Assembly: GCA_030529655.1 (NCBI GenBank)
Contig: JAUMWJ010000007.1
Coordinates: forward strand, 1 to 54,835
Length of the DNA: 54,835 bases
DNA from: Eubacteriales bacterium
GTDB taxonomy: Bacteria; Bacillota; Clostridia; Oscillospirales; Oscillospiraceae
Reading direction: 5' to 3'
The notes below the pieces were generated by a model. That model did no database searches. It saw nothing but the letters and a program-made list of their open reading frames with translations, and was not told where the DNA came from. Position 1 is the first letter of the stretch. Each line of letters starts with the position of its first letter. The position numbers were made by a program, and so were the translations under genes. Shown one piece after another: positions 9,731 through 24,917 of this stretch.

Positions 9731-9777
9731 ACAAAAAAAGCACTTCACTTTTGCCACGTGTGCATAAAGAAGTAATT
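9731..9777 (+). repeat. Left terminal inverted repeat of the element
   Basis: The left end matches the reverse complement of 24035-24080 over about 46 bp, with shared blocks around GCACTTCAC, ACGTG and GAAGTAATT, one single-base gap and a TTTT/AAAA swap. Probably the recombinase binding region. Confidence 0.8.
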
Positions 9778-9838: not shown

Positions 9839-11539
9839 TTAGTTTTGCTCGTGCATATCAGCTAGCGTTTGTAATTCCTGTTGTGTGGGTCTTTCAAACA
9901 ACCCTACGCCGGTAAAGTAAATATCTACCTTGACGTGGCAGTGCCCATCATACTTATCGTTGTTATGAACTTCAATGCGTTGGATCATCATATTTACGAT
10001 TTCCGGTGTTAGCTCCCGCATTTCTGAATATTGGCGAAATCCATTTAAAAGCATCCTCACATCAACGGAGTTCTGCTCTGCTTTGGCAAGCTGTTCTTCC
10101 GCATCGGCAATGGATTGCTTCAACGCACGTTGCTCCGATTCATAATCAGCTGTCATCGTCATAAAACGTTCGTCGGAAATCACACCGTTCACATTCTTTT
10201 CAAACAGGCTGGAAATGTTGCGGTCTATTTCTTTGATACGTTTGTTGCTGTTGAGGATGGTGCTTTTCAATGCCTGAATATCACTATCTCTACCAGCGGC
10301 ATTGCGCATTTTGATTAGATTGAGAAAGTCCTGTTCGTAACATCGAATGAAATCAGCAATATCGCTGATTGCTTCCGTTACAAGCTTTTCAAGTACCACA
10401 TCACGGATAAAGTGGATCTTGCAGGTGCCACTCGCGCTATTGTAATTGGAACAACGGAAGAACTCCTGATCTTTCCTCAGGCTTTTGGAGGCGCAAAAAT
10501 ACATCTTTGCTCCGCAATCCGGGCAATACACCAACCCGCTGAACAGGCTTTTTCGTCCTGTGGCAGTCGGCCTGCGTTTGTTTTCCCTCAACACCTGTAC
10601 ACGCTCCCATACGTCTTCTGAAATAATTGGCTCTTGCATATTGGGAAGAATCTGCTGCTCTTCTGCCAGATTATGAACTGTTTTGTGAACCTTATAGCTG
10701 ATAGTCGTACTTTTGAAATTTACAGCACATCCAGTGTACTGTCGGTTTCCCAGAATGGATACGATTGTAGAACTACCCCAACGAAACGGCTTGACAGGAA
10801 GATCATTGCTTGTCTTTTTGCCTTTGGAGTGAAAATACTCCGTGGGAGTCATAACCTGTTCTTTTTCGAGCTGCCTTGCGATTTGTGCTGGCCCGCGTCC
10901 GGCAAGGCAAAGATCGTATATCCTGCGGACGACCTCTGCTGCTGGTTCGTCGATCAGCCAGTGATCCTCGTCATCGGGATTCTTCTTGTAGCCGTAAGGT
11001 ACGGCAGAAGAAATGCGCTTGCCGTTTTCTGCTTTCATACGATTTACCGCGCGAATTTTCTTTGATGTCTGTGCCGCATACCATTCGTTGAAAATATTAT
11101 GGAATGGCATCATTTCTGCACCAGTGTTCTGTTCGGTGTCCACATTCTCCTGAATGGCAATAAAACGTACGCCCAATGTTGGATACTTGATCTCAAGGTA
11201 CTGCCCGGCTTCCAGATAGTTTCTGCCGAAACGGGACAGATCCTTTACGATGACTGTTCCAATCTCGCCCCTTTCTATCATTTCTTCCATTCGGATGAAA
11301 TCTGGTCTATCGAAAGTAGTACCCGAAACGCCATCATCTACAAAGAACTCTGTGTTTGTGAAGCCGTGCCGCTTTGCAAAGTCGAGCAGCATCTTCTTCT
11401 GGTTTGTGATCGAGTTCGACTCGTCCTCAACCTTGCGCTTCCGTTTGGCTTTTTCCTCCGGCAGATCATCCTGAGATAAGCGGCAGTAAAGAGCCGTAAT
11501 TTTATTGTTTTGCCCTGTCATATTGTTTGCTGTTGTCAT
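9839..11539 (-). CDS. tnpX: Large serine recombinase (TnpX-like)
   Basis: Excises and integrates the element. The 566-residue protein has an N-terminal resolvase domain with ITALYCRLSQDD holding the catalytic Ser, VKDLSRFGRNYLEAGQYLE near residue 105, a recombinase domain, a zinc-ribbon with CPDC and a second Cys pair (near residue 345), a coiled coil, and a C-terminal DUF4368-like segment with KVDIYFTGVGLF. These domains in this order are typical of Tn4451 TnpX relatives. The ATG at 11539 follows AAAGGAG at good spacing; an upstream TTG would overlap that site. It is the last gene of the mobilization run and adjoins the left terminal repeat. Confidence 0.93.
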   Translation of the reverse strand: MTTANNMTGQNNKITALYCRLSQDDLPEEKAKRKRKVEDESNSITNQKKMLLDFAKRHGFTNTEFFVDDGVSGTTFDRPDFIRMEEMIERGEIGTVIVKDLSRFGRNYLEAGQYLEIKYPTLGVRFIAIQENVDTEQNTGAEMMPFHNIFNEWYAAQTSKKIRAVNRMKAENGKRISSAVPYGYKKNPDDEDHWLIDEPAAEVVRRIYDLCLAGRGPAQIARQLEKEQVMTPTEYFHSKGKKTSNDLPVKPFRWGSSTIVSILGNRQYTGCAVNFKSTTISYKVHKTVHNLAEEQQILPNMQEPIISEDVWERVQVLRENKRRPTATGRKSLFSGLVYCPDCGAKMYFCASKSLRKDQEFFRCSNYNSASGTCKIHFIRDVVLEKLVTEAISDIADFIRCYEQDFLNLIKMRNAAGRDSDIQALKSTILNSNKRIKEIDRNISSLFEKNVNGVISDERFMTMTADYESEQRALKQSIADAEEQLAKAEQNSVDVRMLLNGFRQYSEMRELTPEIVNMMIQRIEVHNNDKYDGHCHVKVDIYFTGVGLFERPTQQELQTLADMHEQN

Positions 11540-11624
11540 GTTATCTTTTCTCCTTTCAGACAACCGGGCATAGCAAAGGCAAATATAGCTTACTATGCCC
11601 AGTCGATATTGTGAAATGTGCGGA

Positions 11625-11825: not shown

Positions 11826-12697
11826 TATCGTTCTCGCTCTCGCTGGCGATGCAAAAATTTCTTGTAATAATCAACTGCTTTTAAGACAAACTCTTCCTGC
11901 TGCTGGACAGACAGATTCTGCGGCAGGCGGTCACGGAGCTTGTCCATTGGAATCTTCAGCGTTTCCCTCTGATTTGGTTTCTCCTGCGACAGCATCTCAG
12001 AGATTTCATAGTGAGAAAGGTTCCCGTCTTTATACAGGTTCTTCATATGAAAAGCTTGCGAATAAGATGGCGTACAGTCGTTTGCCCTGCATTCTTCCCA
12101 AACACACCGCTGCGCTTCATGGCTGAGATAGGATAGTTCCACGCCGACGGACAGCGCCATCTTGCCCTCGTCCATCCAATCCAGCAGTTCGGGGATGAGG
12201 TGTGTCAGACGGATATAGCGCTTTATTTGACGGGCACTATCATCAGCGGTTTCTGCTATCTGCTCATCGGTTCTTAACTTCGGGCCAACTTGGCCCGAAG
12301 TTATGTCTGTGCGTTTGCCTTGATGCTTCATAGCATCATATTTCATCTTGTACGCAAATGCTTTTTCAGACGGCAGAATATGCTCGCGATGCAGGTTGCT
12401 GTCTACCACCGCAATAGCGGCAGCGTCGCGATCAATGGCATGAATTAAGGCAGGTACTGTTTCCAGTCCTGCCTTTTGTGCTGCGTGTAAGCGGCGGTGT
12501 CCGCTTACTACCTCGTATTCATCTGTGGTATCCTCCAGTGGCCTGACAATCAGCGGAGAAAGAATGCCCTGTGTCTGGATGCTGTCAACCAGCGTGTTCA
12601 TCTCCTCGTTGTCGAGCACCTTGTAGGGATGTCCCTCAAAGGGGTGTAATTTTGATACCGGAATAGCTACCGGCTTTTTCATAGTGTTGTTTTTCAT
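11825..12697 (-). CDS. ParB/Spo0J-family protein
   Basis: A 290-residue protein with an N-terminal ParB nuclease-like/CTP-binding domain: PVSKLHPFEGHPYKV, VSGHRRLHAAQKAG (near residue 65) and VDSNLHREHILPSEKA (near residue 98), followed by a helix-turn-helix around DSARQIKRYIRLTHLIPELL. Such proteins accompany Tn4451-like mobilizable elements; no ParA is nearby, so partition in the classical sense is unlikely and a regulatory or maintenance role is inferred. Its ATG overlaps the relaxase stop codon by 4 bp. A 13-bp perfect inverted repeat lies within the gene. Confidence 0.87.
   Translation of the reverse strand: MKNNTMKKPVAIPVSKLHPFEGHPYKVLDNEEMNTLVDSIQTQGILSPLIVRPLEDTTDEYEVVSGHRRLHAAQKAGLETVPALIHAIDRDAAAIAVVDSNLHREHILPSEKAFAYKMKYDAMKHQGKRTDITSGQVGPKLRTDEQIAETADDSARQIKRYIRLTHLIPELLDWMDEGKMALSVGVELSYLSHEAQRCVWEECRANDCTPSYSQAFHMKNLYKDGNLSHYEISEMLSQEKPNQRETLKIPMDKLRDRLPQNLSVQQQEEFVLKAVDYYKKFLHRQRERER
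12276..12302. repeat. 27-bp near-perfect palindrome inside the parB-like gene
   Basis: Arms AACTTCGGGCCAA and TTGGCCCGAAGTT (12276-12288 and 12290-12302) around a single C. It falls in a linker between the ParB core and the helix-turn-helix, where coding constraint may be low, and could be a protein-binding site. Confidence 0.6.
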
Positions 12698-14073
12698 CGT
12701 TCGTAATTCCTCTCTTTCTTTTTGAGTGTCATATTGGTTTCTTCATAAATGGTTTGCTGCGGTACTTCATAGCCATCTACACGAGCCTCATTGGCAGTGA
12801 CTCTATCCAGTGTCTCTTGGATATGCTTTGAGTGCTCCTCTATCGTATAGTTGCATTTGAGGTACTTGCGCAGCTTGGACATCTCCTCTGTCAGCGATGC
12901 TTTCCTTTTCCGCAGTACCACCTTATCCTCAGGAGCGGCCCTGCGGATTTTATTTTGCAGTTTGGTGCGCTGTGCTGTCAGATCGTTGAGTCTGTCCTCC
13001 AGATCCTGCCTGTCAAAGTACAGATCATCCAGCGTGTTAACGCAATGGCGATCCATATAGTCAAGCTCTGCCGTGTACTGATCCAGCTTACGCAGTTCCT
13101 GCTTGAGATAGGGACTGGTCGGCTCATAGTACTGCGTTTCCGGGAAGATCCCCAGCTCATAACAGAAATACACGTAAAGATTACGAATGTACCTTGTGTA
13201 CCGAAACGGCGTGTAGTATTTGTCATAGCTGCGTGGCATATAGGGAGTGTAATCGACTATTGCTTCCTTGCTGCCGTAGTATGCACGACTGCCTACATGC
13301 TGCTCCCAATAGGTTGGTGTCCACTGCTCGTCCAAGGTATCCAATCGCGTAAAATGCTGATACTGTGGCAGCCGTATCTTCCAATGCTTGCCGCTGAAAT
13401 CTGTAATGTATCCCAGACGCTGCAGATATTGCTCGGCATCGGATACATTGACGCTGTTCGCAAATGCTTCGCGGATATCCTTGCGGTATACGTTGTACCT
13501 TGTAGGCTTGCCGTTTTTCTCATCCAGCCATACAGGCCGTGATGGTGCTTTATGCGGTCGGGTAATAATGGAAAGGCCATATTCCTGGCACAGCCGGTCT
13601 GATGTATCCCGCAAGCGTTGCTGTTCTTTCTTGGAGTAGTTATACTTACCACCGTCACGGAAGGATACGGAATTGAAAGCAAAGTGATTATGGATATGAT
13701 CTTTATCCAAATGCGTGGTGACCACGATTTGGAACCGATCGCCCCACATCTCCTTTGCCAGCTTAACACCGATCTCATGTGCCAGCTGCGGTTTCACTTC
13801 GCCTACCTTGAAGCTCTGGTAGCCATGCCATGCGATATAGTTATCGTTCTTGCCGTATTGCTTCTTGGTCAGGATCATCTGCTGTAAGGCGATAGGCTTT
13901 GCACAGTTGATGGTGGATACATATTCCTCGCGGGTCTTATCCTCTCGGCGGACATACTCGAAAACATTGAAGAAGTCCCCTGTTCCTTTCGGGACAGTCT
14001 TCTCCGGATTCTCCACATAGTCGATGAGATCGCGGAGCCGTCCTTTGATATGCCATAGGCTGGTTGTTGCCAT
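12694..14073 (-). CDS. Relaxase / mobilization nuclease
   Basis: Nicks oriT and leads strand transfer during mobilization. The 459-residue protein has the relaxase three-histidine motif in HLDKDHIHNHFAFNSVSF (near residue 125) and an N-terminal relaxase domain, followed by a long charged helical region. Family level is MobP/Relaxase-type (Pfam Relaxase). It overlaps the parB-like start by 4 bp and follows the mobC-like gene by one base, forming a tight operon mobC-relaxase-parB-tnpW-tnpX. Confidence 0.92.
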   Translation of the reverse strand: MATTSLWHIKGRLRDLIDYVENPEKTVPKGTGDFFNVFEYVRREDKTREEYVSTINCAKPIALQQMILTKKQYGKNDNYIAWHGYQSFKVGEVKPQLAHEIGVKLAKEMWGDRFQIVVTTHLDKDHIHNHFAFNSVSFRDGGKYNYSKKEQQRLRDTSDRLCQEYGLSIITRPHKAPSRPVWLDEKNGKPTRYNVYRKDIREAFANSVNVSDAEQYLQRLGYITDFSGKHWKIRLPQYQHFTRLDTLDEQWTPTYWEQHVGSRAYYGSKEAIVDYTPYMPRSYDKYYTPFRYTRYIRNLYVYFCYELGIFPETQYYEPTSPYLKQELRKLDQYTAELDYMDRHCVNTLDDLYFDRQDLEDRLNDLTAQRTKLQNKIRRAAPEDKVVLRKRKASLTEEMSKLRKYLKCNYTIEEHSKHIQETLDRVTANEARVDGYEVPQQTIYEETNMTLKKKERNYER

Positions 14074-15547: not shown

Positions 15548-16162
15548 TTACCTCTCACTAGTATTTACTTGAATGAATTTTCTGGTAGGGTAATTTGTTA
15601 CCTGTAGCCAAATATTACTTTGCCCGAGATTATTCCATTCTAAAGCTGAAAAGCGATATTGATAAAGATCAAATGGCAACACAATATCACACGCAGTACC
15701 ATCCTGCAATCGAATTCCAGTATTGTCATTCAATACTGGATTTATCACTTCAAGAAGATCCCAATCCATATTCATTAGCATATCTGTAGTATATAACAAC
15801 AGTTCTGTTAGCGGGAATCCTTCCGCGGTGCTATCCTGCTGTGAAATGGTAACTTCGACCAATGCAACCTTATCAGGGATTCGACTACGGTCACTTCCAT
15901 CATAAGCCAATGTTGAAGTGTATGTGTTGTAGTCTACGATCTCAAAGCCGTTGACCTTAAGCATATATCCGTCCGCCGCCAAATTATATCCCATATAATC
16001 TGAAGCAACCGGGACTGTTTCTCCAATCGAGTATGTCTTTTCCGTATTTGCCGCCCATCGTTTCTGGTAGTCTTGATTGATTGCTCTGTAACGAACCAAC
16101 CAAGCGCATACAAGAACTATTGTACCTGCGAGAGTCAGCCAAAGTTTCTTCTTATTCTTCAT
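15548..16162 (-). CDS. Membrane-anchored protein linked to the ABC transporter (DUF5028-like)
   Basis: A 204-residue protein with one N-terminal membrane anchor (residues ~6-24, KLWLTLAGTIVLVCAWL) and an extracytoplasmic domain of mixed beta character, including AADGYMLKVNGFEIVDYNTY. It resembles DUF5028-type proteins found beside similar ABC transporters, but I am not certain of the family. It overlaps the ATPase stop by 4 bp and is last in the operon before a strong terminator. Possible accessory or substrate-sensing protein. Confidence 0.7.
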   Translation of the reverse strand: MKNKKKLWLTLAGTIVLVCAWLVRYRAINQDYQKRWAANTEKTYSIGETVPVASDYMGYNLAADGYMLKVNGFEIVDYNTYTSTLAYDGSDRSRIPDKVALVEVTISQQDSTAEGFPLTELLLYTTDMLMNMDWDLLEVINPVLNDNTGIRLQDGTACDIVLPFDLYQYRFSALEWNNLGQSNIWLQVTNYPTRKFIQVNTSER

Positions 16163-16800
16163 TTACTTATCACCGATGTCACCTTTCCATCTCGCATTTG
16201 AATAATAACATCCGATACTCTTTGTACAAAGTCTGCATCGTGGCATGCGATAACCACCAATGCACCGCGTTCACGCTCCTCAAGGATTAACTGCGCAATC
16301 ATACTAACACCATGCTCATCCAATGCATTGGTAGGTTCATCTAGAATAAGTAGTTCCGGTTTTTCCATTATAGCGGCGGCAATACCCAGGCGTTGTTTCA
16401 TGCCCAAAGAATATTTTTTGAAAGGGCGGTTATCGTCTGATTGCAGTCCTACTGCTTGTAATGTATTTTGGATATCAGGAACTGAAATCAATTGATTTAG
16501 TCCCGCAAGTAGCTCCAGATTTTTAAAACCAGTATATTCATCTACGAAAGCTGGACTCTCAATCATCGCGCCTACAGATGCTGGGAAATCCAAATCTCTA
16601 CCCAAATGACAATTGTTCGCCAACACTTTACCTTCTGTCGCATAGATCAGTCCGCACATTAGCCGTAAAAGCATTGTCTTACCTGATCCGTTTTCCCCTT
16701 GCAATCCGTAGACTTTTCCGCTTTCGAAATTCAAATTGATGTCTTGTAACACTGTAGTCCCACGAATAGTTTTTGTGACATGCTCTACTACAATATTCAT
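16159..16800 (-). CDS. ABC transporter ATP-binding protein
   Basis: A 213-residue ATPase of the BcrA/lantibiotic-immunity type that would energize the two permeases upstream. Walker A GENGSGKT (near residue 37), signature YSLGMKQRLGIAAA (near residue 128), Walker B LLILDEPTNALD and the switch His in IACHD are all present. The ATG at 16800 follows AAGGATG; a longer reading would run into the permease gene. Located in the mobile element's cargo operon, with a 4-bp overlap to the next gene. Confidence 0.92.
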   Translation of the reverse strand: MNIVVEHVTKTIRGTTVLQDINLNFESGKVYGLQGENGSGKTMLLRLMCGLIYATEGKVLANNCHLGRDLDFPASVGAMIESPAFVDEYTGFKNLELLAGLNQLISVPDIQNTLQAVGLQSDDNRPFKKYSLGMKQRLGIAAAIMEKPELLILDEPTNALDEHGVSMIAQLILEERERGALVVIACHDADFVQRVSDVIIQMRDGKVTSVISK

Positions 16801-16813
16801 CGTATCATCATCC

Positions 16814-17662
16814 TTACTTTTCGAGAGATATGAGATCTTTTCTTTGAATAAGTATGTACCCAACACCCACTGACAAAAGCAATAGTAGTGATGCCGCAAT
16901 CAGTTCCTTTTCTGCAGCTAATCCGTTTGCATCAAAAAGCTGGCTACGCATTACCATCGCGCCGTTGCCAATCAACCATCCATTTGGGAAATATGCAGCG
17001 GCAATGTAAACCATAAAACATATCAGGAAACTGACCGCCGGGCGTATTACAAGGTTCAAACACGTCTGTATCATGCTTATTGCCGTAAGCGTTATAAATG
17101 GCAGTAACACGGCATACAGAATAACACTTGTTGGCATGAGCGAAATCTCATCACCCCACAAAACCTCCGAAAACAAAAATGTAGTAACCTTCGGAGTGTT
17201 GTTCAAATGAAATGTGATGGGTGTCAAAAACGCTGCACCAATTATTACCACCATTTCGCAAGCAAAGTAGATAGCACAACTTACTGTGCACCATATGCAT
17301 TTAGATAACCACCATTTCCCACGTGACGTGCGAATAAAAACCTGTTGCCCTTGTACGCTGATTCCCTGTGCAGAATATGCCGCCGTCAGATATAGGCAAA
17401 AGCCGCATAGAATAAGCCATTCAATCGGAATCAATACTTTTTCCTCAATAGAGCCATATTGCATGATAGCCATGCCGCGAAACATACACAGCATGTAGTC
17501 TCCAATAGACCCTTGGCCTGTTATGGATTCCGCATCGCAATAGAATTGTACAGAGCGATATACTGTGAATACTCGCACAGCAAATATTAGCACGGCAATC
17601 AGATATTTTTTCCACTGCAATCCTCGATGCAGATCGTAACTTATTAGCCTATAGAATCTCAT
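16814..17662 (-). CDS. ABC transporter permease (second)
   Basis: A 282-residue membrane protein with about six predicted hydrophobic segments and a C-terminal ISYLSKSKDD-free tail ending QRKDLISLEK. It has no recognisable catalytic motif and belongs to the ABC-2-like permeases that pair with BcrA-type ATPases. The ATG at 17662 follows AGAGGAAAT; it starts 14 bp before the end of the upstream permease gene, so the two are translationally linked. Confidence 0.82.
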   Translation of the reverse strand: MRFYRLISYDLHRGLQWKKYLIAVLIFAVRVFTVYRSVQFYCDAESITGQGSIGDYMLCMFRGMAIMQYGSIEEKVLIPIEWLILCGFCLYLTAAYSAQGISVQGQQVFIRTSRGKWWLSKCIWCTVSCAIYFACEMVVIIGAAFLTPITFHLNNTPKVTTFLFSEVLWGDEISLMPTSVILYAVLLPFITLTAISMIQTCLNLVIRPAVSFLICFMVYIAAAYFPNGWLIGNGAMVMRSQLFDANGLAAEKELIAASLLLLLSVGVGYILIQRKDLISLEK

Positions 17663-18491
17663 GTTTATTTCCTCTGTATAGTACCGCAAGGACAGATATC
17701 GCGGCCCAAAGAATAATTTCCAGAATCACGATCCATGTTGGACTGGGATTTGTGCTTGCCAAATTGCATAATCTCAGAGGAGAAAGTTCTATATACCAGT
17801 TTATTGCATCAGCAAACAACGGAGTGATAAAATCAAGCAGAAGAAATAGTATAAGAGGAGCCACAATCACAAAAAAACGATGTTTAACCTTATTTGCAAC
17901 GATAAGGCAAACGCTTGCAGCAACGCCTCCCCAAAGAAACTCAATTACGCACCAGATGATGGCATGTAGCCAAGGACGGGTATAGTATAATTGTGCTAAA
18001 AATGCCGTACCCGAGCAAATACCTGTAATAGGAACTGTGACCCGAGGTATACAAGCAGGGCAAATCATTGCAGATAAGAGCAAATTTGCAGTTACCGGAA
18101 ATGCAATCGCAGCGCCACCACTTATAAATACAGCCAACATTTTGGCTGTGAGATACTGGGAATACGGTACTCTGGTTAGGATATTATTTACCATATGAGA
18201 TTTATGGTCTTCATACAGTGACCACCCATAAGGCATGGCAGCTAAAAACGGCCACACAGCATAGAAAATTACAGATCCTACAGTGACTCCATTGATTCCA
18301 ATCCAATTAACAAACAAACCGCAGCCATCATATCCCCCTGGGGAATGCGCATATGATGCGCCCAAATCGCTGACGGTAAGTGCCGTTTGCACTAAATCAG
18401 CCGTGGCAAGAATACAACCAATTAGCAATGCATAACACATCATCTTATTGTGAAATGCTTTCCACATTTCAACCCTAATGCATCTTCCCAT
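17649..18491 (-). CDS. ABC transporter permease (first)
   Basis: A 280-residue membrane protein with multiple hydrophobic segments, N-terminus MGRCIRVEMWKAFHNKMM, typical of ABC-2-type permeases (a short amphipathic start, then a membrane helix). It probably forms a heterodimeric channel with the following permease. Substrate is unknown; antimicrobial peptide export or immunity is the usual role for this arrangement and is only inferred here. Confidence 0.82.
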   Translation of the reverse strand: MGRCIRVEMWKAFHNKMMCYALLIGCILATADLVQTALTVSDLGASYAHSPGGYDGCGLFVNWIGINGVTVGSVIFYAVWPFLAAMPYGWSLYEDHKSHMVNNILTRVPYSQYLTAKMLAVFISGGAAIAFPVTANLLLSAMICPACIPRVTVPITGICSGTAFLAQLYYTRPWLHAIIWCVIEFLWGGVAASVCLIVANKVKHRFFVIVAPLILFLLLDFITPLFADAINWYIELSPLRLCNLASTNPSPTWIVILEIILWAAISVLAVLYRGNKHEIL

Positions 18492-18563
18492 TATGCTATA
18501 CCTCCAGTCTAATTATATTTGGGGATAACATAGCTAAGTAAATACGAAATATTTTGGTTTAGA

Positions 18564-19625
18564 TTAATTAACTGGTATTTCCTGATTCCCAAACTGGACA
18601 TAATCAACATTGCTCAAGTCTATCGGGGCAGTAAGAATGTATACTGTTCGGCTTCCTGATGCTGTGTCGATCCCATTTCCCATGTTGGTCTTAATAATGC
18701 TACCGTCTTTCATTACTATTTGTACAGTTCCCGGAGTAGGTAGTACATTATCTTTATCGGGAGAGGTATAGTTATAAGACACCTCAAGATAAAACGGAGA
18801 AAGAATCATATCCTTCAGCGTTATGGACATATCCTCCCATTCAACAGTCTTCCCATTAAGCATCGCATTTACATCAAGGCCTTTCACATCTATCTCTTTC
18901 GGAGTTGTATTCTGTAAAGAAAAATCAAACGTCCAGTCACCTTCCAAAAATACAGAATATTCCTTATCTTGGTTCTGTAACCAGATGTTATGAATACAGA
19001 CCCTAATATCATTGCTTTTAGAGAACGAGGCAACTTTGACTTGTGCTACATATGATATAACTACGTTGAGAGAATTGTCTCCCGGAACCGGATCACTCCA
19101 TGTGCAATCTGACGTTCCAGATATTGGCTTGCCACTTTTTTGATCTACAATAAGGTCAACCCATTCATCGGGGTTGCCTAGCTGTAGTGTGTTGCCTTCT
19201 TCTGGAAGGGAAAGTTCAGTGCCTTCTGGTGCATCAACACGAAGGGAAATATAGCACATAACATCATCCGAAATTACAGCTAATGGTGTAATTGATGTGC
19301 CATTGGAAATGTACGTATTGCCTCCGCTTGCAAGAACTCGTGCCAACACTTCTTCCTGCCCTGGCTTTGAGGAATCAAAAACGCTCCTAAAATAATCAAG
19401 CAGATTTACGCCAGCTGCAGCAAGCGCAGTAACACTTAAAGCTAAAACAAGACACGCCGCAACTGCTATACTGGCAATTTTTCGAAAGCTATGGTGCTTC
19501 GTTGATTTCGAGTGGCAATCCTCTTTAGCATCTATAGCCATATCTTCTGACGAATACATCATCGACTCCATTATAAATTTGTCGGATACATTGCCAATTG
19601 CATTTGAAATATCATACTTTGTCAT
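18564..19625 (-). CDS. DUF4179-type anti-sigma factor
   Basis: A 353-residue protein with a ~75-residue cytoplasmic N-terminus, one membrane helix (IASIAVAACLVLALSVTALAA near residues 66-86) and a large extracytoplasmic domain that resembles DUF4179 proteins. It is expected to hold the cognate ECF sigma factor inactive until a surface signal is received. Its ATG overlaps the sigma stop codon (ATGA), strongly coupling the two. The ABC transporter genes follow and are the probable regulon. Confidence 0.85.
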   Translation of the reverse strand: MTKYDISNAIGNVSDKFIMESMMYSSEDMAIDAKEDCHSKSTKHHSFRKIASIAVAACLVLALSVTALAAAGVNLLDYFRSVFDSSKPGQEEVLARVLASGGNTYISNGTSITPLAVISDDVMCYISLRVDAPEGTELSLPEEGNTLQLGNPDEWVDLIVDQKSGKPISGTSDCTWSDPVPGDNSLNVVISYVAQVKVASFSKSNDIRVCIHNIWLQNQDKEYSVFLEGDWTFDFSLQNTTPKEIDVKGLDVNAMLNGKTVEWEDMSITLKDMILSPFYLEVSYNYTSPDKDNVLPTPGTVQIVMKDGSIIKTNMGNGIDTASGSRTVYILTAPIDLSNVDYVQFGNQEIPVN

Positions 19626-20194
19626 AATATCATTCCTTCTTTCTGCAAGTATTGTTGAAGGCAACCACGTATTCGTGAAAGACGTACGGTAACGCGGTGG
19701 GGTTTCCAGTGCATTTGCGAGGCAATTTCTGTCACAGAATCAAAGTACCAATAGCGCCGCATAAACATAAATCGATCTTCTTTGTTGAGCGTATGTAAAA
19801 ATGTCTCTATGGTTTTTGACAACTCTTTCGCCTGAAATTCTGTTACAGGATCGTAAGTGTTTCCCCGAATCAGTTCATCGAGCTCATCAAGCGCCAGCTC
19901 ATAAGTATTATTACGCTTAAACGCGGTGTTTGCGTAATAACGTTTGGTTGCTATATTCCGTGTAATACGAAATAAATACGCCGCCAAGGGATTTGGGGAT
20001 TCTGGCGGAATTCGTTCCCAAGCAGCAAGATATGTATCATTTTCGCATTCTTCTGTGTCCTGCTTATTGCCCACGATTTTATACGCTATTCTCTTTATTG
20101 CCGGGCCATATTTTGCGCTTACTTCTTCAATTGCTTGTTCTGAGCGATTGTAGAACAGCTCAATTATTGCGTTATCGTCCATTTGACTCGTCAC
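19622..20194 (-). CDS. ECF-type RNA polymerase sigma factor
   Basis: A 190-residue sigma-70-family protein. Region 2 spans about residues 10-80 (LAAYLFRITRNIATKRYY is typical of region 2.2-2.4), and region 4 is near the C-terminus (FDSVTEIASQMHWKPHRVTVRLSR region, residues ~150-175). First gene of the sigma/anti-sigma/ABC operon; it is likely autoregulated, although I could not identify a convincing promoter. Confidence 0.9.
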   Translation of the reverse strand: MTSQMDDNAIIELFYNRSEQAIEEVSAKYGPAIKRIAYKIVGNKQDTEECENDTYLAAWERIPPESPNPLAAYLFRITRNIATKRYYANTAFKRNNTYELALDELDELIRGNTYDPVTEFQAKELSKTIETFLHTLNKEDRFMFMRRYWYFDSVTEIASQMHWKPHRVTVRLSRIRGCLQQYLQKEGMIL

Positions 20195-20305
20195 CTCGTT
20201 TCCTCTCTATTTATATTCTACGGATTAAAGTCTGCATGTCTCACGTATTTGGCAAAAATTTTGAATACGAAAATTTTATCCACAATAAATCCGCTACAAT
20301 GTGCA

Positions 20306-20335
20306 AATGATACCAAATTTGTTTTTGGTATCATT
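20306..20335. repeat. Inverted repeat upstream of the ECF sigma gene
   Basis: AATGATACCAAA / TTTGGTATCATT with a 6-bp centre. It lies about 110 bp upstream of the sigma start and has no T-run on either side, so it is more likely an operator or leader hairpin than a terminator. Confidence 0.5.
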
Positions 20336-20458
20336 CTCTATCTTCTGTAAATAGAAATATGACATCCCCTGCGTTGAACAAATCATAGCATTGCTGACAT
20401 TTCGTGTAAATAATTATATAGTTATGCTGTTGTATGCATTGAAATTGTTCTCATCAAC

Positions 20459-20647
20459 CTATTCTGCATCAGTCTTGATAACACGTATTTTCTTTGTGGG
20501 TGCATCAATAATTTTCAAAATCAGATCATTGACATCCTCTGTCGGCTTGCCATCATGCAGATACTCATTCCGAGCCGTCATAAGGCACCCGACCAATAAT
20601 CTGTGTTCAAAATCGTCCAAATAAAAGTATTTCCGCTTTGTTTTCAT
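20459..20647 (-). CDS. 62-aa conserved small protein, copy 1 (apparently lacks an SD)
   Basis: Nearly identical for its first 50 residues to the protein at 23684-23872 (MKTKRKYFYLDDFEHRLLVG start); the C-termini diverge (IKTDAE here). Family function is unknown. The upstream regions are also related, but this copy lacks a segment of about 32 bp carrying the GGAGGT site found before copy 2, so the ATG directly follows the shared CCCTACAAT-like sequence. It may be poorly translated or a decaying duplicate. Located between the ECF operon and the AAA ATPase gene. Confidence 0.6.
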   Translation of the reverse strand: MKTKRKYFYLDDFEHRLLVGCLMTARNEYLHDGKPTEDVNDLILKIIDAPTKKIRVIKTDAE

Positions 20648-20692
20648 TATTGTAGGGAAAACAAAAAAGGAAATCGAATGTGCGGATAATGC

Positions 20693-20730
20693 AAAAGCAC
20701 CATCTTGGCATAACCAAGATGGTGCTTTTT
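20693..20730. terminator. Terminator of the AAA ATPase gene
   Basis: A 16-bp perfect stem, AAAAGCACCATCTTGG with its complement (20693-20708 with 20714-20729). T-runs are moderate on both sides; on the minus strand it lies 50 bp past the ATPase stop. Confidence 0.8.
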
Positions 20731-20781
20731 AAATGTCGTGCTATGAAATGATAATTAGAGTGTATCTTCTTAGAATTAAAA

Positions 20782-22119
20782 TTACGCATCCCTAATTTCC
20801 TGTAGCACCTTTACAAAATCAATCGGTTTTACAGTCGGCATGCCGCCATAATCGTTTGCCAAATATTTGCTCCGAATATTATTATTTATGTATGTTCGTT
20901 TTTCATAATTTGAAATGCACCGAACTTCCTTACTACCGTTCTCCGTCTCTCGAATTATATATGTCGCATCACGAGAAAACTCAGCCTGCATAAGAAGGGT
21001 GTTATGAGTTGTTAATATTATCTGACCACCAACTTCAGGACATATATTTGGATATATATCCTGAAAGATGCGTAGGAAAAGAAAGTCATGAATACCAGAA
21101 TCGGCCTCATCAATAACAATAGTTGCACCTAAACATGCGCATATTAGATAGCAAAGTACATTCAAAATCTGATGATTTCCCGTGGATTCCTTGGAAAAAG
21201 GGATATTTCTATAACAGCCCGAAATCATCTTTTCAAAGTAAAGTTGATAGTCTATCTTCTCATCGTTGTATTTACGTTTATAATATACTTTCTGAATACT
21301 TGAATTAATAGATGCGAATATCTGTGTAAGTACCTTTTCTGCAATATCCAGCTGATATTCGTCTCGCTTAGCAATTTCGCCAGCATCGGCGTTTTCAAAA
21401 ACTTCATAAGGGGCCCTGAGTTTAGACCACTGTCGTGAGCCGATTCCAAGGCTGCAAGATACCAATCTGAAGGCATCAATTACATCGTTAAAATTTACAG
21501 AAATATTTTCTCTGCCATAGGATTCCGACTTATCATGTAGTTCGTGTAAAATAATAGAAAACACAGAGTGCTTTCCCCAATACTTTCTGACAGACGACTT
21601 AATATCTAAATAAAAGTCCTTATTATTCACTATTGCATTATTTATAGACAAACTTTCTTTGGTACAATCAAAGTAAATTCCTCTACGGCGATGAATTGTA
21701 TATTCTAACCTTTCATGAACGATTTCATTCTCGCCAAATTCAATAATGTACTTTCCTGTTTTCCCAAAAATATTAAATTCATATTCGGCTAAAATATTTC
21801 CGGTACTACCAACCATACGATAATCATTAATAATTGCATTAATATCTCGGATTGAAGATAAAATGCGCTGTCGTATTTCAGAGCCAATCTCTTCATTTTT
21901 AAATACACTTTGGCTCAAAAATTCCTCATACGCATCCCTAATATCCATGGTTTGCAGTATTTCATTTAGCAGAACAAATGCAGATATCAGGTTCGACTTT
22001 CCGGCGCCATTTTCTCCATATATAATGGATACAGCTTTCGGGCTACCATTTTTATTTGTCAAATCAAATTCAATGTTGTCAAATGATCTAAAGTTCTTAA
22101 GACAAATTTTTGTAAACAT
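20782..22119 (-). CDS. AAA ATPase (OLD/AAA_15-like), possible defence protein
   Basis: A 445-residue ABC/SMC-like ATPase. N-terminal FTKICLKNFRSFDNIEFDL, Walker A GENGAGKSN (near residue 35), signature-like FSKESTGNHQILNVL (near residue 310), Walker B TIVIDEADSGIHD (near residue 335) and the switch His in ILTTHNTLLMQ are all present. There is no fused TOPRIM domain, so it is an AAA_15/AAA_21-type protein as found in many abortive-infection and defence loci. The ATG at 22119 is preferred over a GTG at 22134, because the GTG abuts the promoter -10 and would not be transcribed. It is divergent from an unknown gene at 22527. Confidence 0.82.
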   Translation of the reverse strand: MFTKICLKNFRSFDNIEFDLTNKNGSPKAVSIIYGENGAGKSNLISAFVLLNEILQTMDIRDAYEEFLSQSVFKNEEIGSEIRQRILSSIRDINAIINDYRMVGSTGNILAEYEFNIFGKTGKYIIEFGENEIVHERLEYTIHRRRGIYFDCTKESLSINNAIVNNKDFYLDIKSSVRKYWGKHSVFSIILHELHDKSESYGRENISVNFNDVIDAFRLVSCSLGIGSRQWSKLRAPYEVFENADAGEIAKRDEYQLDIAEKVLTQIFASINSSIQKVYYKRKYNDEKIDYQLYFEKMISGCYRNIPFSKESTGNHQILNVLCYLICACLGATIVIDEADSGIHDFLFLRIFQDIYPNICPEVGGQIILTTHNTLLMQAEFSRDATYIIRETENGSKEVRCISNYEKRTYINNNIRSKYLANDYGGMPTVKPIDFVKVLQEIRDA

Positions 22120-22134
22120 AAAATCACCCGACAC

Positions 22135-22163
22135 ATTATCTCACATTTGCAAGCATTTTTCAA
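22135..22163 (-). promoter_or_regulatory. Promoter of the AAA ATPase gene (near-leaderless transcript)
   Basis: Minus strand: TTGAAA (22163-22158), 17-bp spacer, GATAAT (22140-22135). Transcription should start near 22128, giving a 5' leader of only about 9 nt (GGTGATTTT) before the ATG at 22119. Confidence 0.75.
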
Positions 22164-22201
22164 GTCTTATTTTTGTAAAAAATCAAAATAATCGAGAATG
22201 T

Positions 22202-22218
22202 CGATAGCATTCCTATCG
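22202..22218. promoter_or_regulatory. Candidate operator between divergent promoters
   Basis: CGATAG / CTATCG around a 5-bp centre, midway between the two divergent -35 elements (22163 and 22245), a natural place for a shared regulator to bind. Confidence 0.45.
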
Positions 22219-22244
22219 CTATTTGCTTTTGTTTTAAATTTTTC

Positions 22245-22273
22245 TTGACAAAGCACAATTCGTGGTGTATGAT
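22245..22273 (+). promoter_or_regulatory. Strong promoter of the leader RNA / unknown gene
   Basis: TTGACA (22245-22250), 17-bp spacer, TATGAT (22268-22273); transcription should start near 22280. Confidence 0.8.
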
Positions 22274-22279
22274 ATTCAG

Positions 22280-22526
22280 TAGAATAATGCGGGAGTGTAC
22301 CTCCCACCCCATGTACCTTGAAAATGAAAATGAGCGCAAAAAAGACGCCATTGGCTAGGCGTCTTCCCGCGTCGGCAAAATATCCGGCTCACATATGCTA
22401 GTTTAAGTGGTATTAATTAGTATATCACAGCCTAAGCCAGGATGCAACATGAAATTTGCTGACAGGAAGGATAAATAAGCGGGAATTGCCTCATTTCATA
22501 ATATATTATTATGAAAGAGGGTTTTT
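22280..22526 (+). ncRNA. Structured leader RNA (about 247 nt), candidate regulatory RNA
   Basis: The 407-bp gap between the divergent genes is mostly this leader. Local GGGAG/CTCCC (22291-22305) competes with long-range GCGGGA/TCCCGC (22289-22294 with 22365-22370). A perfect AAGACGCC/GGCGTCTT hairpin (22342-22365) lies inside, then GTGGTAT/ATATCAC (about 22409-22430), and finally an SD-masking hairpin (22489-22520). No internal terminator with a T-run is seen, so it is more likely an mRNA leader than a separate small RNA. There are no tandem repeats of the type III antitoxin kind and no reverse transcriptase nearby. Confidence 0.5.
22489..22520 (+). promoter_or_regulatory. Hairpin masking the ribosome binding site
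   Basis: CCTC-A-TTTCATAA (22489-22501) pairs with TTATGAAA-GAGG (22509-22520), a 12-bp stem with one bulge and a 7-nt loop. The 3' arm contains the AAGAGGG site of the gene starting at 22527. Confidence 0.65.
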
Positions 22527-23474
22527 ATTATAAACTTTTCTGAATTCTACGAGCTCCCTATCCAAGGACATAGCGATATTGACTTCGTTGATATTCCGCT
22601 TGATACAGATGTGCCACTGTACATTGATCCTGAGCGCATTTCGCTGAGTGATCATCCTTATGCAGCGCAAGCTGCTCGGCGTATCGAGGACTTCTATGAC
22701 ACTCTTTTTGATGCAGCAATTCACTATGATGAGAACGCCTTGAATCATCTGCTGTCGTTTGGTCGTGAGCCAAATGAGACCCACCTTGGCTTATCCTCTT
22801 CACGTTCTTGTGGGCGAGGAACTTCTCCGGAAATTGTCCTACCAATTATTCGTGAAATGCTCAGAAAAAGGCTTTTTGACTCAGGTCTTATTACAGAGTT
22901 GAGCGATTTGCAACTATGGACACCTAATTTTGGGCCAGATCGGCTATCTGACCTAACCACGAATATCATCCGAGATGTTTTGTATGACTTTACGCTCGAG
23001 CAATATGAGGCTCTAGGGATTCCTCTCTCAGATGAATCTCAAACACAGGTTGCTTGGAATCCACAAAGCCACAGATGGGAACAATATGCTTTTCCCAAAT
23101 TATGTGCAAATCGACATCAGGTGCTACTGGTACCAAAGGACTTTGTAGGACGGAATATGTTATCCTCTCCGGGTGAATTGCTCCAAAAATACGCGCTTTC
23201 TTATCGGCAAAAAGAGCATCTCGATGAAAGAAGTCACCTCTGCCGCCGTCGAACAGATAGATATGGGCGTGAAACGTGGACTAAGCCAACCAAGAAGGAA
23301 CTTCGTCAAATTGAGGTGATTGGGCAATCCGAAAAAGAATATCTGTTGCGGCTTGGCTATCGACACCCACAGATGGTCCACGAGTTACATGCAGACAATC
23401 GGCGTTCCTCTTGCTTTATGAGGGACGAAGACCTTGATTACCTGCTCTATTTTCAACGCGATAATGTAATCTGA
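22527..23474 (+). CDS. Unknown 315-aa protein with probable ATT start
   Basis: Family not recognised. The reading frame is open from 22515, but between there and an internal GTG at 22611 it has no ATG, GTG or TTG codon. AAGAGGG ends 5 bp before an ATT at 22527, giving (M)INFSEFYELPIQGHSDIDF, a plausible N-terminus with conserved-looking acidic content (DIDFVDIPLDTD). Other notable stretches are FGPDRLSDLTTNIIRDVLYD (near residue 140) and a basic Arg-rich region near residue 235 (RSHLCRRRTDRYGRETW). No membrane segment or signal peptide. It is divergent from the AAA ATPase inside the mobile element; a role as effector of a two-gene defence module is possible but unproven. It could also be a mutated start codon. 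Confidence 0.65.
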   Translation: MINFSEFYELPIQGHSDIDFVDIPLDTDVPLYIDPERISLSDHPYAAQAARRIEDFYDTLFDAAIHYDENALNHLLSFGREPNETHLGLSSSRSCGRGTSPEIVLPIIREMLRKRLFDSGLITELSDLQLWTPNFGPDRLSDLTTNIIRDVLYDFTLEQYEALGIPLSDESQTQVAWNPQSHRWEQYAFPKLCANRHQVLLVPKDFVGRNMLSSPGELLQKYALSYRQKEHLDERSHLCRRRTDRYGRETWTKPTKKELRQIEVIGQSEKEYLLRLGYRHPQMVHELHADNRRSSCFMRDEDLDYLLYFQRDNVI

Positions 23475-23480
23475 TTTGAA

Positions 23481-23510
23481 GAGGCACACTCGCATGAGTG
23501 TGCCTCTTTC
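23481..23510 (+). terminator. Terminator of the unknown 315-aa gene
   Basis: GAGGCACACTC / GAGTGTGCCTC (23481-23491 with 23496-23506) with a GCAT loop, followed by TTTCCTTT. Confidence 0.88.
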
Positions 23511-23639
23511 CTTTATAGAGTTCATATTTTATACTTTGCCATCATCTTTCCCGACAAATTGCCCTACTTGTATAGGGCTATGTAACCTAACCACTCGGGA
23601 GCACAGTTGGTTCACTGAACCACTTCTAAACAAGTTACG

Positions 23640-23680
23640 AAAGGCGCATTGCTCAATACAAGTTTGAGCAATGCGCCTTT
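23640..23680 (-). terminator. Terminator of small-protein copy 2
   Basis: A 17-bp perfect stem (23640-23656 with 23664-23680, arm AAAGGCGCATTGCTCAA) immediately after the copy 2 gene on the minus strand. The trailing T-run is short. Confidence 0.75.
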
Positions 23681-23683
23681 CCA

Positions 23684-23872
23684 TTACACTCTTGCTTCTT
23701 CAATCACCCGTAGTTTCTTTGAGGGAGCGTCAATAATTTTCAGAATCAGATCATCAACATCCTCCGTTGGCTTTCCGTCATGTAAATATTCGTTCCGAGC
23801 AGTCATAAGGCAACCGACCAACAACCTGTGCTCAAAATCGTCCAGATAAAAGTATTTCCGCTTTGTTTTCAT
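23684..23872 (-). CDS. 62-aa conserved small protein, copy 2
   Basis: Paralogue of the protein at 20459-20647 and presumably the functional copy: an AAAGGAGGT site lies 9 bp upstream of the ATG at 23872. The protein is basic at the N-terminus (MKTKRKYFYLDDFEHRLL) and ends SKKLRVIEEARV; it is short, predicted helical, and has no recognisable domain. Longer in-frame readings upstream lack support. The two copies bracket the AAA ATPase and the unknown gene, suggesting they marked or mediated a cargo duplication or insertion. Confidence 0.75.
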   Translation of the reverse strand: MKTKRKYFYLDDFEHRLLVGCLMTARNEYLHDGKPTEDVDDLILKIIDAPSKKLRVIEEARV

Positions 23873-23955
23873 AGCCTCTCGACCTCCTTTTTTGATTTCT
23901 CCTTTATTGTAAGGGAAGCAAGCAGATAAATCGAATGTGTGAATTACTCGAAAGT

Positions 23956-23996
23956 AAAAAAACGCACAGAAAAGCAAAAATGCTTTTCCGTGCGTT
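23956..23996 (-). terminator. Terminator just inside the right end
   Basis: AACGCAC-A-GAAAAGCA pairs with TGCTTTTC-C-GTGCGTT (23961-23976 with 23981-23996) and is followed on the minus strand by a run of seven T. It would stop rsmI transcripts entering the element, mirroring the left-end terminator. Confidence 0.8.
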
Positions 23997-24034
23997 ATTT
24001 CTTTGCCTTTGCAATGCCACGATAGTGTTTTGGG

Positions 24035-24080
24035 AATTACTTCCTTATCCGCACGTAGCTTTTGTGAAGTGCTTTTTTGT
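24035..24080 (-). repeat. Right terminal inverted repeat of the element
   Basis: Reverse complement related to 9731-9777, ending 3 bp before the rsmI stop codon. Together they define the element ends. Confidence 0.8.
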
Positions 24081-24083
24081 GAC

Positions 24084-24917
24084 TTATAGTGACTCATGCA
24101 GCGCTGCATCGTACAGCTCATTGCGGTTAAGCCCTGTATCATCTGCCACCTGACGGACAGCGTCCTTCATACGACAGCCCTCTGTCCTGCGGCGCAGTAC
24201 CATCGCCACGCCTTCTGCCAGCGTAATGGCGGGGCCACTGTGTTTTTCGCATCCTGATACCACCAGTACATATTCGCCTCGGGGCTCGTTTTCTCCGTAA
24301 AACGCCACTGCATCGGACAGCGTCATACGCTGGGTTTGTTCATGCAGCTTGGTCAGCTCCCGGCACAGAGCCACAGGGCGATCGCCCAAAATGGCTAACA
24401 TATCCGACAATGTGGCGCGCAGTTTATGGGGTGCCTCATGAAAGACCATGGTGCGCTCTTCGCCGCACAAATTCTGCAGCTGCTCCTTGCGCTCAGAGCG
24501 ATTGGCGGAGAGGAACCCCTCAAAGGTGAAACGCCTTGTGGGAAGTCCCGACACCGATAGCGCCGTAATGCAGGCACAGCAGCCGGGGATGCTCTGTACC
24601 TCTACGCCGTTTTCGGCGCACAGACGAACCAGATCCTCGCCGGGATCGCTGATAGCCGGTGTACCGGCATCGGTGACTAATGCACAGGTTTCACCGTCCA
24701 GTATCCGCCTTAAAATCGTCTGTCCTGCGGCAGCGCGGTTATGCTCATGATAGCTGACAAGCGGCTTTTTAATGGAAAAATGATTCAGCAGCTTCATGGA
24801 TACACGGGTATCCTCGGCGGCGATAAAGTCCGCCTTTTGCAGCGTTTCCACCGCACGGGGCGAAAAATCGCCCAGATTGCCGATGGGTGTTGCCACCAGA
24901 TATAATGTACCGGTCAT
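24084..24917 (-). CDS. rsmI: 16S rRNA (cytidine-2'-O)-methyltransferase RsmI
   Basis: Methylates the 2'-hydroxyl of C1402 in 16S rRNA. The 277-residue protein has the tetrapyrrole-methylase fold: MTGTLYLVATPIGNLGDFS start, ALVTDAGTPAISDPGEDLV (near residue 75) and FEGFLSANRSERKEQL (near residue 150), then the C-terminal small domain ending ELYDAALHESL. The ATG at 24917 follows AAGGAG. Its stop codon is 3 bp from the right end of the mobile element, so the coding sequence survived insertion. It follows the yabB-like gene by 4 bp, as yabB and yabC are clustered in Bacillus. Confidence 0.95.
   Translation of the reverse strand: MTGTLYLVATPIGNLGDFSPRAVETLQKADFIAAEDTRVSMKLLNHFSIKKPLVSYHEHNRAAAGQTILRRILDGETCALVTDAGTPAISDPGEDLVRLCAENGVEVQSIPGCCACITALSVSGLPTRRFTFEGFLSANRSERKEQLQNLCGEERTMVFHEAPHKLRATLSDMLAILGDRPVALCRELTKLHEQTQRMTLSDAVAFYGENEPRGEYVLVVSGCEKHSGPAITLAEGVAMVLRRRTEGCRMKDAVRQVADDTGLNRNELYDAALHESL

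Follow-up and report, generated by a model that had tools for sequence, protein, structure and literature searches.

Two divergent genes near one end of a mobile element raise the question of what the less familiar of them encodes, whether the two belong together and how they are controlled. They lie in a contig of a clostridial genome of the family Oscillospiraceae (Eubacteriales bacterium, assembly GCA_030529655.1, contig JAUMWJ010000007.1, positions 1 to 54,835), hereafter the window, meaning the whole stretch of 54,835 nucleotides. One gene encodes an ATPase, the other is an open frame of 315 codons, and by our measurement they are separated by the 407 bp already given in the first-pass annotation. 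That annotation had marked the locus as 22119-23474, which leaves out the body of the ATPase gene (20782-22119), and had seen in it an anti-phage or conflict module under layered expression control; the observation as a whole is partly confirmed by the results below, and the anti-phage or conflict reading is partly supported. We tentatively favour the view that the 315-codon frame is a mobile-element conflict effector, that RNA-level control would keep it silent and that an AbiLi-like ATPase is its optional partner.

The 315-aa protein had been described as a member of no recognised family, matching no known defence effector. It has no match in Pfam or NCBIfam at E-values up to 1, but in PADLOC it matches the PDC-M36A profiles (E = 7.9e-19, residues 5-225), and no others at E-values up to 1. 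PDC-M36A is already listed there as a defence candidate. Among the PHROGs, it matches phrog_27295 (E = 1.6e-37, residues 3-241) and phrog_30194 (E = 8.2e-13), neither of which has an assigned function. Homology to PDC-M36A (PDLC04597 and PDLC04598) and to phrog_27295 thus extends over residues ~5-225 of 315, and the match to PDLC04597 covers profile positions 9-228 of 457. A housekeeping identity of this protein, which had been named as the outcome that would speak against a conflict role, was not found; its matches are PDC-M36A and the two viral families. Neither of two profiles searched against solved structures produced a significant match, and no such structure is related to the 315-aa protein by sequence.

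A scan with a four-sequence alignment retrieved 74 related loci in genome contigs across many phyla and five in viral contigs, and at least 51 of these 79 loci encode long forms of 440-530 aa. In 18 aligned long forms of the common type, the region shared with the 315-aa protein is followed by a C-terminal domain with the signature GRKRIDI...ECKNY. All 30 members of alignment A7 (27 long and three short) match PDC-M36A, and 14 of them touch Pfam Mrr_cat at a loose limit of E = 1 (best E = 0.0011), the Mrr_cat score of the member displayed in full being below the Pfam cut-off. By motif reading, what long forms (~480 aa) have in addition would be a PD-(D/E)XK-like domain, weakly similar to Mrr. 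The long forms L018, L019, L020 and L100 (L numbers denote loci, G numbers genomes) have another C-terminal motif, GxGPVDFKxSxG...(V/L)ExK, and in our reading it is PD-(D/E)XK of the same general kind. The 315-aa protein ends ahead of the PD-(D/E)XK-like domain and lacks it. Other short forms, ~280-345 aa in length, likewise end upstream of the nuclease-like region; they come from Clostridia (L027-L032, L122 and L123), a viral contig (L113), Gram-positive plasmids (L007-L011, L014, L015 and L137) and actinobacterial plasmids or contigs (L012, L013, L016, L085, L093, L095 and L124-L126). Residues D28, E81, G88, G96, D138, D142, W184 and P203 show no variation among 12 short forms or among a set of 46 short and long forms, and because the same eight residues are kept across both, short forms are not simply debris. 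Taken together, the existence of short forms, their location on mobile DNA, the AbiLi-like neighbour and the signs of RNA-level silencing described below suggest that the N-terminal domain may be active by itself.

Single-protein queries with the 315-aa protein or the ATPase retrieved no relative from viral contigs; alignment queries retrieved the five loci mentioned above, one of them again in a second search. Neither the 315-aa protein nor its L028 relative has a match in phage records. Upstream regions of the staphylococcal records are at least 99% identical in 46 of 49 cases, so that these were counted as a single lineage. At L019 (1370-16706), a 460-aa long form lies between a 1586-aa protein and a 2128-aa protein, which we take to be large-methyltransferase-like and helicase-like, respectively, with a second presumably helicase-like protein before them; this neighbourhood looks like a multi-gene defence cluster.

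The first sign of RNA-level control is found on the antisense strand upstream of the short forms. We searched 260 nt upstream of each gene for antisense terminators under a strict loop and tail rule, with the expectation derived from dinucleotide shuffles (the near-copies L029 and L030 counted as rows of their own). Terminators are present at nine of 21 short-form loci (0.7 expected) and at four of 51 long-form loci (0.8 expected), compared with two of 21 (0.3 expected) and one of 51 (0.5 expected) on the sense strand. Under this rule, no terminator was scored for the window, L029, L030 or L011. In a combined test, a sigma70-like promoter was additionally required 15-170 nt before the terminator. 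Such units are found in six of eight related lineages (0.12 expected from shuffles), in two of six Gram-positive plasmid forms (0.12 expected) and in one of 41 long forms (0.10 expected); among the eight lineages, only one has such a unit on the sense strand (0.04 expected). The eight lineages, grouped by similarity and not by a tree, are the window, L031, L027, L028-L030, L032, L122, L123 and L113. The combined test omitted L029, L030 and L015 as near-copies, and L124 and L033, the start of which is uncertain. Long-form sets were drawn from the 79 loci after exclusion of fragments, short forms, unclear starts and short upstream sequences, leaving 41 for the combined test, 51 for the terminator-only test and, restricted to ATG starts, 34 for the leader tests described below. 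Five of the six antisense units in related lineages have an exact TATAAT, the unit of L123 having TAACAT instead. The predicted RNAs would be ~66-132 nt long, and their promoters lie upstream of the gene and face it. We also considered that the units might be peptide genes, and rejected this, the three longest frames of each unit all lacking a Shine-Dalgarno sequence. In L123, a 67-aa frame (5756-5959, VKKRVTVTQESETGRNE...) without a Pfam match separates the antisense unit from the short-form gene, and several actinobacterial plasmid copies have small frames just upstream of the short-form gene.

Rfam families matched at gathering score in 11 relatives only as rli28 and rliF, both on a Listeria plasmid. 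Plasmid short forms also lie beside genes of other type I toxin–antitoxin systems: at Listeria locus L008 (4412-4747), the rli28 match is accompanied by a weak RatA match, and an annotated Fst toxin gene lies downstream of the staphylococcal short forms L009 and L137. The rli28 match, which lies upstream of the Listeria short form, was rejected as its antisense RNA, the weak RatA match being on the facing strand; we take this locus for a separate type I module with what reads as a short hydrophobic peptide.

The second sign lies in the mRNA leader. Complementarity between the ribosome-binding region and an upstream arm, scored against shuffles, reaches z < -2 in nine of 22 short forms (mean -1.67) and in two of 34 long forms (mean 0.14). 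Inverted repeats in the leader reach the same limit in nine of 22 short forms (mean -1.57) and in one of 34 long forms (mean -0.04). L029, L030 and L015 were counted here as separate rows, and the start of L122 was placed 6 nt late; for the arm comparison, the correct start was used. Counted by lineage, with L028-L030 taken once, the window, L027, L028, L032 and L122 pass the duplex test and L031, L123 and L113 fail it, whereas L031, L027, L028, L032 and L122 pass the inverted-repeat test and the window, L123 and L113 fail it. Sequences of the arms vary between lineages while their complementarity is kept, as in L122 (AAAGAGATACC/GGTATCTCTTT), L028 (CCTCCTTAAAAATC against TTTTTAAGGAG) and the window (CCTCATTTCATAATA/TATTATGAAAGAGG). 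Moreover, one arm in L122, L027 and L028 has two possible partners, the ribosome-binding region and an arm further upstream, an attenuator logic that an antisense RNA could switch. The results on antisense units and leaders alike are sequence and energy arithmetic. The layered expression control of the first-pass annotation thus holds as predicted control at the RNA level, and is clearer in the relatives than in the window itself.

The ATPase had been called OLD/AAA_15-like, with 445 residues. Its length and the match to AAA_15 stand (E = 6.3e-8, next to AAA_21 with E = 9.6e-17 over residues 31-377 of 445), while an OLD-family nuclease identity was rejected, no C-terminal Toprim domain being among its Pfam matches at E-values up to 1. 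An alternative in-frame GTG at 22134 lies 15 nt upstream of the ATG. The best PADLOC match of the window ATPase is AbiLi (E = 2.4e-39), a profile that the ATPases of paired relatives match as well (L031, E = 2e-40; L123, E = 4e-70). AbiL is a lactococcal two-gene abortive infection system, and abiLi and abiLii are reported as putatively bicistronic (PMC3985639). The window differs in that the partner of its AbiLi-like ATPase is divergent and of another family than AbiLii; in the place of an AbiLii neighbour, the sole notable frame between the ATPase stop at 20782 and the next gene on the same strand is one of ~61 aa. On an Enterococcus faecalis plasmid (L127, 5001-6959), a 31%-identical ATPase is directly followed by a 195-aa gene, a partner unlike that of the window and with weak PADLOC matches only.

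The check on co-occurrence proposed with the first-pass annotation was run, and the divergent pair was found at three further loci. At L031, a contig of a Butyricicoccus metagenome-assembled genome, the ATPase is 46% and the partner 43% identical to those of the window, with 420 bp between them; at L122 (genome G450), the values are 42%, 39% and 438 bp; at L123 (genome G626), a distant AbiLi-like ATPase lies 588 bp from a partner with 26% identity. The 315-aa query has matches in six of 300 family genomes (E-value limit 0.001) and the ATPase in three (limit 1e-30), both only in the window's own genome, from which it first appeared that the two do not co-occur; this was overturned by the pairs of L031, G450 and G626. 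Among 394 genomes of the order, a query from L028 has matches in four (limit 1e-20) and the ATPase in six (limit 1e-40), the two families meeting in the window's own genome and in G450. Hence the pair recurs in four of eight lineages and is real but optional.

Based on these observations, we propose the following scenario. The locus would be cargo of a serine-recombinase element, an optional conflict module of two genes in which short M36A is a latent effector, either a growth-arresting, abortive-infection-like protein or an addiction toxin of the plasmid or element. A first brake would be the mRNA 5′ leader, pairing with the ribosome-binding region; a second would be a short antisense RNA with a promoter in the leader and a terminator of its own, covering the upstream part of the leader. 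This RNA may decide which partner the blocking arm takes, the alternative upstream arm, with translation possible, or the ribosome-binding region, with translation off. The divergent AbiLi-like ATPase, under its own promoter, could act as an accessory sensor or activator, and is taken as dispensable because half of the compared lineages are without it. Production of the antisense RNA, control of translation, toxicity, the link to phage or addiction and the part played by the ATPase are all predictions of this scenario.

Known systems offer partial parallels. In the type I toxin–antitoxin system SymE-SymR and in the EcoRI system, through Rna0, RNAs are reported to pair with 5′ mRNA regions (PMC3874152), and the predicted RNAs of the short forms would be comparable, lying upstream of the gene and starting from a promoter that faces it. 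Likewise, the putative control resembles that of abiD1, an abortive-infection gene whose mRNA is described as poorly translated before its activation by a phage protein (PMC2661086), and that of AbiF in a Clostridioides difficile prophage, described as a toxic protein that a non-coding RNA keeps in check (PMC12373285). In the case of AbiF, the RNA acts by binding to the protein; the RNA predicted for short M36A would instead oppose the leader. AbiD1 and AbiF profiles are absent from the PADLOC matches of the 315-aa protein at E-values up to 1. Fusobacterium AbiLii is reported to be toxic in Escherichia coli and AbiLi to have failed to neutralise this toxicity (PMC3985639), which would be compatible with an AbiLi-like ATPase that is not an antitoxin.

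Several points weigh against this scenario. Usual type I toxins are described as hydrophobic and under 60 aa (PMC6563280), unlike a protein of ~315 aa. All promoters and terminators are consensus matches, and the leader tests were designed after the first examples had been seen, for which reason the long forms and the shuffles serve as the fair controls. The window fails the combined test: its terminator hairpin is present, and its best-placed antisense promoter is below the threshold. Its inverted-repeat score is unremarkable (z = -1.1), and the missing standard start of its short form, described below, may be a sign of decay. L113 gives no signal in the combined or leader tests, none of the eight actinobacterial short forms passes the combined test (for these, a search of the sigma70 type may be unsuitable), and the leader scores of L123 are weak (z = -1.5 and +0.2). 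In L123, the antisense unit lies ~340-390 nt upstream of the gene, past the small frame, and the unit of L027 holds the longest frame found in any, 33 codons without a Shine-Dalgarno sequence. L031 lacks complementarity to the ribosome-binding region (z = -0.2), and the arm of L032 that pairs with this region is not among its inverted-repeat arms. Sense promoters with at least 10 of 12 consensus positions are present upstream in the window, L031, L029 and L123 and in none of L027, L028, L032, L122 and L113, which makes a long sense leader uncertain in these five. The small number of independent lineages, six to eight, is a further weak point. As for the pairing, the ATPase is absent from the stretches examined of L027, L028-L030, L032 and L113, four of eight lineages; inspection of 14 plasmid loci out of 67 matching records revealed no annotated divergent ATPase, the PLSDB tables being incomplete; and the window ATPase is closer to its unpaired relatives in G294 (58%) and G207 (51%) than to the paired ones of L031 (46%) and L122 (42%).

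The absence of the ATPase from half of the lineages and from the inspected plasmid loci also speaks for the strongest rival, according to which two unrelated cargo genes came to lie side by side repeatedly in an integration hotspot, the RNA control concerning the M36A gene alone. In L027 and L028, a helix-turn-helix (HTH) protein is divergent in place of the ATPase, and in L032 and L113 neither of them is. No short form lies beside the ATPases of G294, G207, G645, G567, G572 and the E. faecalis plasmid in the stretches examined, and the contig of G583 stops 262 bp beyond its ATPase. Both genes of the window, moreover, are flanked by copies of a frame of ~61 aa, common in the family (matches in 29 of 200 genomes, its own included). 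Nevertheless, the divergent order is identical and the gap similar (407-438 bp) in three diverged loci, and the best ATPase promoter match lies 44-54 nt from the ATPase start in all four paired loci (50-54 nt in the three outside the window). Both families are also rare in the order at the limits used, yet adjacent in G450, and this rarity makes repeated adjacency by chance unlikely. We regard unrelated cargo as a somewhat unlikely explanation. The divergent HTH protein, of 353-360 aa, is found at L027 (4483-5544) and at L017 (11429-12511), in the lineages closest to the window; at the near-copies L029 and L030, it was not clustered. A same-strand "AAA family ATPase" at plasmid locus L011 was taken for a partition protein.

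The rival explanations are not all mutually exclusive, and the next one, rather doubtful in our view, concerns the window copy only: its 315-codon frame might be a recently damaged relic without function there. The frame is open over its whole length, as had been annotated, with no standard start where its relatives start: at the start position of L027 and L028 the window has no ATG, GTG or TTG, and the first listed start, GTG at 22611, gives 287 aa. For the window copy, this leaves a non-standard start codon or damage at the start; intact relatives exist. A candidate antisense promoter is also weak (8 of 12 consensus positions by hand count, with a TG before the -10 hexamer; the predicted RNA would be ~78 nt). 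Because of this promoter and the non-standard start, the copy may be poorly expressed or decayed. Against a relic stand the nearly full length of the frame and its 60-61% identity to the closest relatives over residues 2-308 or 2-311, as well as a strong sense promoter and a Shine-Dalgarno-like AAAGAGG (22514-22520) still in place ahead of it.

Both divergent promoters of the first-pass annotation are present in this region, as matches to 11 (plus strand) and 10 (minus strand) of 12 consensus positions. The hexamers and spacing of the sense promoter are identical in L031, and a match of 11 of 12 on the sense strand occurs in ~1% of dinucleotide shuffles of the 440-nt upstream stretch. Our scan of 20000-24200 yielded 23 promoter-like sites, compared with 13.7 ± 3.2 in shuffles, and seven terminator-like sites, compared with 3.0 ± 1.8. 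The 17-bp palindrome noticed earlier does exist and was scored as terminator-like by the scan, but it is weak, and it was rejected as an operator, not being preserved in the alignment with L031, the sole relative compared for it. Two features had gone unnoticed, the antisense terminator-like hairpin, unscored under the strict loop and tail rule and with counterpart hairpins in relatives, and the hairpin that would bury the Shine-Dalgarno sequence (Table 1). A possible leader frame of 15 codons (MYLENENERKKDAIG, ~22311-22358, plus strand, read by eye) follows the strong sense promoter and ends within the antisense terminator hairpin. Searches for Rfam-type families over 19500-24500 gave just three matches, all far under gathering scores.

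A third alternative accepts the leader and dispenses with the antisense RNA: an ordinary attenuated leader with inverted repeats responsive to a ligand or the ribosome, in which the antisense promoter is an AT-rich by-product. The arms of L028, L027 and L122 can indeed form a leader hairpin, in competition with the pairing that involves the ribosome-binding region, and the antisense promoter of the window is weak. However, the excess of promoter-plus-terminator units on the antisense strand (six against 0.12 in shuffles, with one against 0.04 on the sense strand) speaks against a by-product, and we consider this explanation unlikely. That the nuclease-less copy is a decoy that blocks or titrates full-length PDC-M36A of the host, helping a plasmid or element to establish, fits the absence of the nuclease-like domain from forms on plasmids, a viral contig and this element and the presence of long forms in genomes of many phyla, but it is improbable given that the conserved N-terminal residues are retained, that RNA-level silencing would be odd for a helpful decoy and that the window's own genome holds no second homologue (E-value limit 0.001). 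Extending the scenario of an RNA-silenced effector, one may speculate that short M36A proteins form a novel class of large effectors restrained by RNA, that the antisense RNA also binds the short M36A protein, as in type III systems or AbiF, that an arm shared with the promoter gives an autoregulated shut-off, that long forms are the same sensor fused to a nuclease and that the ATPase is an alternative effector or trigger; to this we assign very little weight, less even than to the decoy.

The mobile-element setting is borne out. The element of ~14.3 kb has imperfect terminal inverted repeats and genes for a large serine recombinase, a ParB-like protein and a relaxase, and carries both genes as cargo near one end. 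Its region 15548-20194 encodes an ABC-transporter ATPase, apparent membrane proteins and a sigma-70-like factor. The copies of the ~61-aa frame (MKTKRKYFYLDDFEHRLLVGCL...) that bracket the gene pair, absent from the earlier account, have 86% nucleotide identity over 170 nt (20478-20647 and 23703-23872). Over the 57 codons compared, they differ by 20 synonymous and four non-synonymous changes and look like old, separately maintained duplicates. The right copy has no Pfam match.

Table 1. Coordinates of genes, signals and element features in the window.
Feature	Position	Strand	Details
Left terminal inverted repeat of the mobile element	9734..9777	+	Imperfect
Large serine recombinase of the element	9839..11563	-	Resolvase, Recombinase, DUF4368
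Relaxase of the element	12694..14073	-	MobA/VirD2-like
Left copy of the ~61-aa frame	20462..20647	-	MKTKRKYFYLDDFEHRLL...; flanks the gene pair
AbiLi-like AAA_21/AAA_15 ATPase	20782..22119	-	445 aa; ATG 22119, stop ending 20782
Promoter-like site for the ATPase	22163-22135	-	TTGAAA-17-GATAAT, 10/12
Palindrome	22202..22218	+	CGATAGCATTCCTATCG; 17 bp, 6-bp arms, 5-nt loop
Strong promoter-like site for the 315-codon gene	22245..22273	+	TTGACA-17-TATGAT, 11/12
Antisense terminator-like hairpin	22365-22342	-	AAGACGCC/GGCGTCTT, then T run (leftward)
Candidate antisense promoter	22419..22447	-	TTGCAT-17-TATACT
Sense-leader hairpin predicted to bury the Shine-Dalgarno sequence	22489..22520	+	CCTCATTTCATAATA/TATTATGAAAGAGG
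315-codon frame, short (nuclease-less) PDC-M36A form	22527..23474	+	Open frame
Right copy of the ~61-aa frame	23684..23872	-	Flanks the gene pair
Right terminal inverted repeat of the mobile element	24035..24078	-	Imperfect

Compared with long PDC-M36A proteins, the window form thus lacks the C-terminal PD-(D/E)XK-like domain, and its relatives have signs of RNA control that are seldom seen in long forms. Name searches of open PubMed Central papers (bioRxiv excluded) retrieved no mention of PDC-M36, PDC-M36A, PDLC04597, phrog_27295 or WP_000176962, and within these searches the short-form class, its optional pairing with an AbiLi-like ATPase and the signs of RNA control appear to be undescribed. 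If the proposed scenario is true, antisense-RNA control would extend from small peptide toxins to effectors of ~315 aa, on Gram-positive plasmids and clostridial elements.

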